Assembly (NCBI RefSeq): GCF_902459525.1
Contig: NZ_LR699166.1
Coordinates: forward strand, 2,616,501 to 2,680,500
Source of the DNA: Sideroxydans sp. CL21
Lineage (GTDB): Bacteria > Pseudomonadota > Gammaproteobacteria > Burkholderiales > Gallionellaceae
DNA: 64,000 bases
Reading direction: 5' to 3'
The notes under the pieces are model-generated. The model saw only the letters and a program-made list of their open reading frames with translations. It was not told where the DNA came from and ran no database searches. The position numbers were made by a program, and so were the translations under genes. Shown piece after piece: positions 815-33,162 of this stretch; position 1 is the first letter of the stretch; each line of letters opens with the position of its first letter.

Positions 815-2701
815 CTAAATGGCCAAAGGCTCTTCCTGCTGCTGCAAGGCCCACATCTGGGCATAAATTCCCTGTTTTTCCAATAAGTTACGATGTGTTC
901 CGCGCTCGATAATACGGCCTTTGTCCATCACAAGAATCTGATGAGCGTCAACGATAGTCGACAGACGGTGGGCAATTACCAGCGTGGTACGGTTCTGGGC
1001 GATGTTGCGCAACTCGTCCTGTATGGCTTTTTCGGACTTGGAATCCAGAGCCGAAGTCGCCTCGTCAAAGATAAGTATCGCCGGATTTTTGAGGATGGCA
1101 CGGGCGATGGCGACACGCTGCTTCTCCCCGCATGAAAGCTTCAGTCCGCGTTCTCCCACCATGGAATCGTAACCCTGCGGCAGGGATTCGATGAATGTAT
1201 GGATATGTGCCGACTGTGCGGCAGAAATCACTTCCGCGCGGGTGGCATTCGGTCGACCGTAGGCTATGTTGTAATAGATGGTGTCGTTAAACAGCACGGT
1301 ATCCTGGGGCACGATACCGATGGCCGCGCGCAGGCTCGTCTGTGTTACGTTGCGGATATCTTGTCCGTCTATCGAGATGCCTCCCCCATTCACATCGTAG
1401 AAACGGAACAGCAGGCGCGACAGGGTGGATTTGCCCGCCCCGCTAGCGCCCACCACCGCGATCGTGTGTCCTGAAGGAATATCGAAGCTGACATCGTGCA
1501 ATATCTCGCGCGCCGGATCGTACGAGAAATTGACGTGCTCGAAGCGCACCCCCGACACGTTACTGACGAAGTCAGCCGTTTGCGGGAGGGGGTGCGATGC
1601 GGCCACTCCCGCACTCGTCGGCTCCGCCGCACCGTGTCGTGGCCGCACTGCAGCACCGTTCAACCTGAGCGGCAGTGCATGCTGCGCATCCTGCACTTCT
1701 CGATTCACGTCCAGCAGACGGAACATCTTCTCCATATCGGCCAGGGCGTTCTTGATTTCACGGTAGACGAAGCCCAGAAAATGCAGCGGCATGTAGAGCT
1801 GCAGCATGTAGACGTTGACCAGAACCAAGTCGCCGATGGTCATGGTGCCCTTCACGACCCCGTCCGCCGCCAGCAGCATGAGCAGAGTCACGCCGATGGC
1901 GATGATGATGCTCTGCCCGGCATTGAGCGTCGCCAGCGAAGTCTGGTTGCGCACAGCAGAGACTTCCCAGCGTTGCATCTGTTCGTCGTAACGCTCGACT
2001 TCGAAATTTTCATTGCCGAAGTACTTGACCGTCTCGTAATTGATCAGACTGTCGATGGCGCGCGTGTTGGCTTTTGAATCCATGTCGTTCATGGTACGGC
2101 GGAACACCATGCGCCATTCGGTGATGGTCAGGGTAAAAGCGATGTAGAGCACCAGCGTGGCAAACGTGATGATGGCAAACCACGGGTTGTATTTGTAAAA
2201 CAGGACACCCGCCACCAGACCTATCTCCAACAGCGTCGGCAGGATGTTGAACAACAGGAAGGTAAGCAGGAAACTGATGCCGCGCGTACCGCGTTCGATG
2301 TCGCGCGACACTCCGCCGGTTTGCCGTTCCAGATGAAAACGCAAACTCAGGCTGTGCAGGTGCTCAAAAACCTGCAGGGCAACCCGCCTGATGGCACGTT
2401 GCGTGACCTTGGCAAACAGGGCATCGCGCAACTCACCGAAAAGCGTACTGAACAACCGCAACAAACCATAGCCCACGACCAAAAACACCGGAATGGCAAG
2501 CATCGCCTTGGGCTTGCCCATTGCATCCACGATAGACTTGAGCACGAGCGGCACAGCGACGTTGGTCAATTTGGCCAGCACCAACAGCACGATCACCGCC
2601 GCCACACGGACTTTGAATTCCATTAGATAGGGGAGCATGCTGCGAATGACCCGCCAATCGGTGCGCGTTGGGGCGGATGAAGAACTCGAATAATGTTTCA
2701 T
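815..2701 (-). CDS. Atm1/HMT1-type ABC exporter (fused permease-ATPase) with in-frame palindromic insert
   Basis: Half-transporter of 628 residues: an N-terminal six-helix exporter domain (about 25-335), a linker, and a C-terminal nucleotide-binding domain (from about 385). It resembles the Atm1/ABCB7 family, which exports glutathione-linked sulfur or metal species from the cytosol. Walker A (GASGAGKST), the Q-loop (VPQDT), Walker B (ILIFDEATSALD) and the H-loop (IAHRLST) are present. The ABC signature reads LSCGE (residues 522-526) instead of LSGGE. Residues about 352-381 are encoded by a 90-bp palindromic repeat also found in folK, and this makes the protein about 30 residues longer than relatives. 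It is followed by pbpG. Confidence 0.9.
   Translation of the reverse strand: MKHYSSSSSAPTRTDWRVIRSMLPYLMEFKVRVAAVIVLLVLAKLTNVAVPLVLKSIVDAMGKPKAMLAIPVFLVVGYGLLRLFSTLFGELRDALFAKVTQRAIRRVALQVFEHLHSLSLRFHLERQTGGVSRDIERGTRGISFLLTFLLFNILPTLLEIGLVAGVLFYKYNPWFAIITFATLVLYIAFTLTITEWRMVFRRTMNDMDSKANTRAIDSLINYETVKYFGNENFEVERYDEQMQRWEVSAVRNQTSLATLNAGQSIIIAIGVTLLMLLAADGVVKGTMTIGDLVLVNVYMLQLYMPLHFLGFVYREIKNALADMEKMFRLLDVNREVQDAQHALPLRLNGAAVRPRHGAAEPTSAGVAASHPLPQTADFVSNVSGVRFEHVNFSYDPAREILHDVSFDIPSGHTIAVVGASGAGKSTLSRLLFRFYDVNGGGISIDGQDIRNVTQTSLRAAIGIVPQDTVLFNDTIYYNIAYGRPNATRAEVISAAQSAHIHTFIESLPQGYDSMVGERGLKLSCGEKQRVAIARAILKNPAILIFDEATSALDSKSEKAIQDELRNIAQNRTTLVIAHRLSTIVDAHQILVMDKGRIIERGTHRNLLEKQGIYAQMWALQQQEEPLAI
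1559..1648 (+). repeat. Palindromic element copy A1, in frame inside the ABC exporter
   Basis: This 90-bp unit begins GTTACTGACGAAG and ends GTGGCCGCAC. By hand alignment it matches 33055-33144 (opposite window strand) at about 74 of 90 positions without gaps. It holds nested inverted repeats: TGCGGGAG with CTCCCGCA, and GCGGCCAC with GTGGCCGC. The host gene reads the reverse of the unit, with no stop, as residues about 352-381 between the membrane and ATPase domains. It is probably a REP/MITE-like mobile hairpin domesticated as a linker. Confidence 0.8.
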
Positions 2702-32580: not shown

Positions 32581-33162
32581 CTAAACCAACCGTTCCAGTT
32601 GCTGATCCTTGCATTGCCTTGCCGCGGCAGCTGCTGTCCCGACACCCGGAATGTCTCTTTCCGGCGCGATCTCCAGCAAAGGTTGCAACACGAATGCGCG
32701 CAGGTGCATCTGCGGATGCGGGATGGTCAAACCATGCTCGTGATGAATCAGATCGTCATAAAGCAATACATCCAGATCCAGAGTGCGCGGCGCGTTGCAG
32801 AATTCCCGCGTGCGCCCCTGTTCAAGCTCCAGTGCCAATAGCGCATCCAGCAAGGCGCGGGGGGATAGCCCGGTCTCCAGCTGTGCAACGGCATTGATGA
32901 AATCCGGCTGTGCCAGAAAACCCACCGGTGCGCTGCGATACAGCGAAGAGCGCCGCGCGACCCGCGACTGCGCCAAATGATCCAGCGCATCCAGTGCACG
33001 CGAAACCTGCGCGACCGGATCGGCAAGGTTGCTGCCCAGCCCGATGAACGCGGTGTGCGGCCACGACGCGGTGGGGCGGAGCCCTTCTGTGCGGGAGTGG
33101 CCGCGGGGCGCCTCCTCCCGCAAATGGCCGGCTTCGTCGGTAACCTGTTGGAGATGCTCCAT
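32581..33162 (-). CDS. folK: HPPK (folate synthesis) with N-terminal extension from a palindromic element
   Basis: 193 residues. 2-amino-4-hydroxy-6-hydroxymethyldihydropteridine pyrophosphokinase of folate synthesis. The normal fold begins at about residue 38 with TAFIGLGSNLADP and continues with FINAVAQLET and RTLDLDVLLYDD. Residues 7-36 are encoded by element A2, making the protein about 30 residues longer than usual. The start ATG overlaps the pcnB stop by one base (TGATG), so translation must read through the element to reach the enzyme, unless an internal start is used. Confidence 0.9.
   Translation of the reverse strand: MEHLQQVTDEAGHLREEAPRGHSRTEGLRPTASWPHTAFIGLGSNLADPVAQVSRALDALDHLAQSRVARRSSLYRSAPVGFLAQPDFINAVAQLETGLSPRALLDALLALELEQGRTREFCNAPRTLDLDVLLYDDLIHHEHGLTIPHPQMHLRAFVLQPLLEIAPERDIPGVGTAAAAARQCKDQQLERLV
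33055..33144 (-). repeat. Palindromic element copy A2, in frame at the start of folK
   Basis: 90 bp on the minus strand, beginning GTTACCGACGAAG and ending GTGGCCGCAC. It is gap-free with A1 (1559-1648). It has the same nested inverted repeats and no stop in the folK frame. Here the gene reads the forward strand of the unit, whereas the ABC exporter reads the reverse, so both orientations are open. Confidence 0.82.

Follow-up and report, generated by a model that had tools for sequence, protein, structure and literature searches.

A putative mobile double-hairpin palindrome lying in frame in conserved genes of Sideroxydans and its relatives

RESULTS

Two copies of a double-hairpin element in the window

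The window (the whole stretch of DNA that was analysed, 64,000 nucleotides of Sideroxydans sp. CL21) contains two copies of a palindromic element, each lying within a conserved gene. The features are listed below with their strand.

815..2701, minus: host gene 1, ABC exporter with membrane domain and ATPase (Pfam ABC_membrane residues 34-306, ABC_tran residues 401-550)
1546..1646, plus: copy 1 of the double-hairpin element, in frame and antisense in the ABC exporter gene; net 99 bp over insert-free orthologues
1546..1553, plus: copy 1, hairpin A outer arm L, GCACCCCC; 8 of 8 pairs with 1588-1595
1554..1587, plus: copy 1, hairpin A core, GACACG ... TGCGGGA (alignment of A units)
1588..1595, plus: copy 1, hairpin A inner arm L'; pairs with 1546-1553
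1596..1598, plus: copy 1, 3-nt spacer separating hairpins A and B
1599..1606, plus: copy 1, hairpin B inner arm R'; 8 of 8 pairs with 1639-1646
1607..1638, minus: copy 1, hairpin B core, inverted relative to A (alignment of B units)
1639..1646, plus: copy 1, hairpin B outer arm R, GTGGCCGC; pairs with 1599-1606
32581..33162, minus: host gene 2, folK (TIGR01498 above cut-off); its ATG overlaps the stop of the upstream gene
33057..33157, minus: copy 2 of the double-hairpin element, in frame and sense at the folK N-terminus; A arm 6 of 8 pairs, B arm 8 of 8
33065..33096, plus: copy 2, hairpin B core (alignment of B units)
33116..33149, minus: copy 2, hairpin A core; first motif degenerate, AACAGG

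The original prediction had described two gapless 90-bp copies, alike at about 74 positions and translated without stops in opposite orientations in an ABC exporter gene and in folK. Both points were borne out: the stretches 1559-1648 and 33055-33144 are identical at exactly 74 of 90 positions, and both window copies are stop-free in the frame of their host gene. The similarity is far beyond chance, the folK copy matching the ABC copy with an E value of 9.7e-21 in a whole-genome search. When the 8-bp closing stems are taken as its ends the unit is 101 bp long, with the window copies identical at 81 of 101 positions; the repeat search of the window returned the pair as 103 nt at 81% identity. 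In the ABC exporter the insert occupies about residues 352-386, between the membrane domain and the ATPase domain, and in the GTG-started folK ORF it precedes the HPPK domain, which begins at residue 40. Four of the six reading frames are open in copy 1 and five in copy 2. We considered and rejected these open frames as an adaptation of the element, there being no clear enrichment over 5000 shuffles of copy 1, which mostly had two to four.

Architecture of the element

Hairpin A is composed of arm L, GACACGTTAC, an inner hairpin, ...TTGCGGGA and arm L'. Hairpin B follows the same plan with GACACGGTG ... GTGCGGGA and is inverted. The two hairpins differ but have GACACG...TGCGGGA in common, and a stem of 8 bp closes each of them. 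Among the 148 close pairs in the fetched loci, 145 were A-B pairs arranged head to head, the remainder being two B-A and one B-B, and the space between the arms was 2 nt in 36 and 3 nt in 109, together 145 of the 148. A further 86 hits in the fetched loci were scored as single, some of them since the partner failed the filter. Half elements were found in the same genome as the window (A alone in rdgB, B alone in trpE) and in genome G004 (B alone in cysN). The predicted fold of the whole element is a strong, stable double hairpin.

Other repeats were seen in the company of the element. A second small palindromic repeat of 54-60 bp, which begins TAACCAGC, is either nested in hairpin A or placed directly after TGCGGGA; it was found in the third copy at L005 and at L014, L059, L104, L119, L147, L283, L307 and L343, and keeps the frame in both genes in which it was seen (L005 and L059). 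An intergenic lineage with CATATG-like flanks (L008, L009, L013, L092-L094, L097, L098, L107, L108, L111, L115-L117, L120 and L130) apparently forms part of a longer repeat, the flanks being common to its copies.

Variable stems that stay paired around nearly fixed cores

The cores are nearly invariant, whereas the closing stems change from copy to copy yet stay paired. Standard pairs filled 97.2% of the stem cells in 66 distinct A units and 95.4% in 54 B units, all of them preselected for pairing at six or more of the eight stem positions, and every one of the eight positions in both hairpins has changes on both sides. The whole-structure covariation score was 0.446 for A and 0.557 for B, against shuffled means of 0.165 and 0.188, and was reached by none of 500 shuffles, which overstate the significance because the sequences counted are related; with the partner slid by 1-3 columns the score was at most 0.179. 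When the core was the only criterion of choice, the 153 A and 159 B units had 7.25 and 7.31 of 8 positions paired, compared with 4.67 and 4.42 after permutation. Pairing broke off sharply beyond the stem: position 8 still stood at about 0.9, position 9 at 0.44-0.58 and position 10 at 0.16. Low pairing was found in 16 A and 11 B units of this core-selected set; judged by eye, 12 of the 16 A units looked like a single lineage with a bulged stem and three were split by the second small repeat.

The original prediction of constraint on the hairpins thus stood, but its detail was inverted: it had arms conserved and loops varied, and we found conserved cores with closing stems that vary with compensation. 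Since the stems vary but remain complementary, a folded single strand, either ssDNA or RNA, would be what is kept. Comparison of G-U with A-C mismatches did not single out the functional strand, neither with both hairpins read on one strand (28 versus 15, p 0.066) nor with each hairpin read in its own sense (21 versus 22, p 1.0).

Complementarity of this kind could also arise without selection, if template switching during replication corrected imperfect palindromes. Such correction would fit near-identical units that carry wholly different yet matching stems, and it would fit sites where species differ in the two arms of a stem at once, as in the ABC exporter, a TolB-like gene, folK and also a BNR gene, the last being placed at the same site from its distance to the domain; these same-site differences could, however, reflect independent insertion at one hot spot. 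The sharp end of pairing at 8 bp is not predicted by correction alone, and the ABC exporter insert of genome G028 (L086) has decayed to 6 of 8 and 7 of 8 pairs and stands uncorrected. We regard template switching as an unlikely, though not negligible, source of the paired stems.

Spread in the genome, the genus and the order

The two window copies proved to be part of a dispersed family with about 15 sites in the genome when tandem copies are counted once. The genome is a single contig of 3,772,857 bp (3.77 Mb), in which copy 1 as query gave 28 matches with E values of 10 or less and 18 below 1e-4; the 18 include tandem copies and one match that overlaps another on the opposite strand. The pattern GACACG-N12-34-TGCGGGA matched 24 times, compared with three for the reversed control, and two of the 24 matches (at 823867 and 3367943) look like chance.

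The query copy matched 35 of 61 genomes, distributed as 31 of 34 from the genus, all three others of the family and one of 24 others of the order. The three genus genomes with no match were G009, G010 and G017, of which G010 and G017 are incomplete. A scan of 250 genomes of the order, run with stricter filters than the 61-genome search, used a covariance model of hairpin A and returned matches with E values no higher than 1e-4 in at least 22 genomes, four of them of the same genus, from at least 10 of 120 genera and at least eight families, with at least 23 matches in the richest genome; among the matches listed, none fell in the own-family genomes G149, G223 and G254. The A pattern was found in at least 120 stretches of named genomes, and the matches listed came mostly from Gallionella, Sideroxydans, Ferrigenium or bins of Gallionellales or Nitrosomonadales; the few from elsewhere include one labelled Sulfuricaulis. 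The plasmids and phages searched gave no match.

Four IMG/VR viral contigs (L440-L443) match the hairpin A pattern and may be proviral edges. Copies recur in many species in a presumed ccm neighbourhood (L014, L071, L102, L125 and others) and in a presumed tol neighbourhood (L004, L096, L123, L126 and others), which suggests old shared insertions or hot spots. At L005 (1399-1706) three tandem copies with a period of about 99 bp lie in one gene of no known family, which we guess to be TolB-like, and one or two copies occupy the place of this array in L060, L065 and L081.

Empty orthologous sites and the length of the insert

Orthologues that lack the insert were found for every host gene so compared. 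Among 29 orthologues of the ABC exporter in the genus, four have the full 99-bp insert, one has a 48-bp remainder and 24 are without it; the remainder, in L217, is a partial deletion that retained 48 bp and kept the frame. Thirty FolK orthologues read by eye comprised three with the full insert, three with apparent remnants and 24 without. The gene of family TIGR01777 carries 99 extra bp in one of its 25 orthologues, 159 bp in another, where the repeat is nested, and none in 23. Compared with eight insert-free orthologues in each case, MurG of two genomes has an additional 99 bp, MnmA 96 bp and GltD 99 bp; cysN has 99 bp in one case and 45 bp (a half element) in another, relative to seven insert-free orthologues. 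At every site with an empty orthologue to compare, the net length (99, 96, 48, 45 or 159 bp) was divisible by three. BioD of L149 was the sole dropout from these readings, its insert being judged by eye against the orthologues. The hosts had been expected to exceed their families by about 30 codons, and the comparison with insert-free orthologues gave about 33.

The element is repetitive and scattered over many loci unrelated to one another, and relatives lack it at the corresponding positions, so it has moved. Chance similarity and old gene duplication were ruled out by the genome-wide copies, the pattern control and the insert-free ABC exporters, and the insert-free orthologues showed that the insert is not a constant feature of the FolK or the exporter family. 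Inspection of the junctions by eye revealed a GCAC repeat at the ABC exporter site and a GCAC-like one at the TIGR01777 site, and no clean target duplication in MurG of L122 or in GltD; a loose-pattern scan for direct repeats was too noisy to use.

Search for a mobilising enzyme

On the loci compared, a Y1/RAYT transposase that travels with the element does not seem to be the mobiliser. The original prediction had named a REP-associated tyrosine transposase as the source, and the search did not support it. REPINs are pairs of inverted REP sequences that a RAYT (Y1 HUH) transposase mobilises; like the present element they are short (about 100 bp), scattered through the genome and built as inverted hairpin dimers, and Y1 matches do occur, two in the genome of the window and others in 10 of 12 unit-bearing relatives. 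However, the unit was absent from all 29 Y1 loci, some of them clipped by contig ends, where two single weak hits look like chance, and two genomes rich in units, G061 and G071 (98% complete, with at least 22 and at least 14 units), had no Y1 match with an E cut-off of 0.001. The RAYT-like gene of the same genome (L113, positions 2129550-2129906) lies near GTAGGTCGGGTTA GTAG hairpins, which belong to a separate REP family, and has these in its flanks and not the unit. Inspection by eye of the A consensus (66 units) and the B consensus (54 units) showed no GTAG or similar foot. With these observations set side by side, identity with a REPIN is improbable.

Among the 25 largest clusters of ORFs beside the fetched copies no transposase-like ORF was recognised by eye; the whole genomes were searched for Y1 only. 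We also considered, and rejected, a gene enclosed by A and B: pairs separated by 150-5000 bp were listed for the fetched loci, and to the eye these 25 recurrent clusters resembled orthologous neighbourhoods.

Host genes and reading frames

We collected 44 loci chosen for an ORF open across the insert, so that the count of in-frame copies is biased by that choice; hairpin A is in the sense orientation in 21 and antisense in 23. Family homology flanks the insert on both sides in 28 of the 44, in which pairs of the same gene may be single events. The 28 genes, named by their Pfam and NCBIfam matches and in part by symbols that we presume from the family names, are given here.

RdgB, TrpE, RecG, GreA, EarP, two M20 peptidases, ABC exporter, two MnmC
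two HemW-like, alcohol dehydrogenase, PurL, HrpA, NuoF, NuoC, PEP carboxylase
MurG, two RlmN, MurC, PrmA, CysN, GlnE, GltD, BioD, MnmA

The frames, read from the insert peptides with L121 (which has a long spurious match) and L145 assigned by eye, are used unevenly. The A-sense loci divide as 15:4:2 (chi-square p 0.0009), or about 12:4:1 with one of each same-gene pair dropped, and 22 of the 23 A-antisense loci use one frame. Translation and selection would leave such a skew, and a preference for one target phase might contribute. We infer that in-gene copies are translated, which would add about 33 residues to linkers, loops or protein ends.

Reading of the ORFs also placed copies between genes, upstream of gyrA and in the vicinity of ccm and tol genes. 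These positions and the stable predicted folds would be compatible with RNA regulators (a terminator, RNase site or attenuator) rather than mobile DNA, but the in-gene copies lie in both orientations in nearly equal number, presence is patchy, the host genes have no class in common, and no Rfam match covered the element in the three loci scanned, so we hold a regulatory role to be very improbable as the explanation. That scan, in which a known RNA family was considered and rejected, gave one sub-threshold match, outside the element. It is extremely improbable that the insert, like a tiny intron, is removed from the mRNA or bypassed by the ribosome: the strong predicted double hairpin and insertions within conserved domains, for example in the MsbA ORF of L090, whose best match to the family breaks off at residue 501 adjoining the insert, could be so explained, but not net lengths that were multiples of three at every site read, a partial deletion in L217 that preserves the frame, or the A-sense skew, with three frames open in copy 2 and two in copy 1.

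DISCUSSION

The element is probably a non-autonomous mobile palindrome made of two hairpins, A and B, placed head to head 2-3 nt apart; this reading draws on comparison of sequences throughout. An enzyme supplied in trans would move the folded single-stranded element; its copies, which lie in conserved genes in both orientations, would be translated in frame, and selection would have removed insertions in harmful frames or places. We put forward only tentatively, as possible rather than probable, the wider proposal of a new superfamily of double-hairpin elements that spans several families of the order, has a non-Y1 mobiliser and has its stems rewritten as a pair, through template-directed copying at insertion or correction in place, so that a translated insert in household genes would evolve as folded nucleic acid and peptide at once.

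The occurrence of the element in a free-living group with isolates makes protein-coding palindromic insertions testable. It opens the questions of whether the insert is translated, how MsbA, MurG or FolK tolerate about 33 extra residues, and which enzyme lies behind palindromes that have no transposase of their own. That the hypervariable stems change in pairs while the cores stay nearly fixed offers a clear handle on the mobile form.

No description of the element was found in the literature searched, whose scope excluded supplements and subscription journals. Coding palindromes are best known from Rickettsia-like obligate intracellular bacteria, and mobile sequences called double hairpins are present in mitochondria; the latter are organellar, and their likeness to the present element rests on name and description. 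The Rickettsia RPE and Wolbachia WPE resemble it in being inserted in frame in pre-existing genes and absent from other orthologues. They are set apart, by description, from an element whose host is a free-living member of the iron-oxidising Gallionellaceae, which consists of two distinct covarying hairpins 2-3 nt apart and which uses several frames. The RPE, in the available part of the source, are palindromic repeats of 100-150 bp, some of which lie in pre-existing ORFs with the frame intact (PMC3767692). In the part of a Gallionellaceae pangenome paper covered by a term search, the terms palindrom, transpos and mobile were absent (PMC10734462).

The original prediction knew such repeats from Rickettsia and Wolbachia and from no autotrophic betaproteobacteria. 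The kind is indeed known from those two, but the claim of novelty has to be narrowed: the accessible sections of two further papers describe in-gene palindromic repeats in free-living bacteria, including O. terrae, Thauera and Thioalkalivibrio (PMC3733652), and, in enterobacterial genes, the RU, small mobile repeats with open frames inside annotated genes (PMC2759123). The RU repeats measure 103-168 bp and are distinguished by a description that, in those sections, has no double hairpin.

The closest likeness in form is to REPINs and to dimers of the GTAG and CGTC REP classes, which are also short head-to-head dimers of inverted hairpins. According to the portion available, REP dimers are head-to-head hairpins of presumed transposition with some intragenic units; the CGTC class has no dedicated transposase and is recognised by a CGTC tag, an 8-9 bp stem beginning AT, a 4-5 nt loop and a CCA-like tail, and S. 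lithotrophicus is named among the CGTC-positive species (PMC3733652). In contrast, the element has neither tag, and the CGTC description, as far as that portion gives it, does not fit the consensus by eye. Within its variable 8-bp stem, each hairpin of the element holds an inner hairpin together with GACACG and TGCGGGA, and nearly all of the dimers are A-B heterodimers. Taken together, the comparison supports the view that the Gallionellaceae double hairpin is a variant, not found described, of an already known kind, the mobile coding palindrome.
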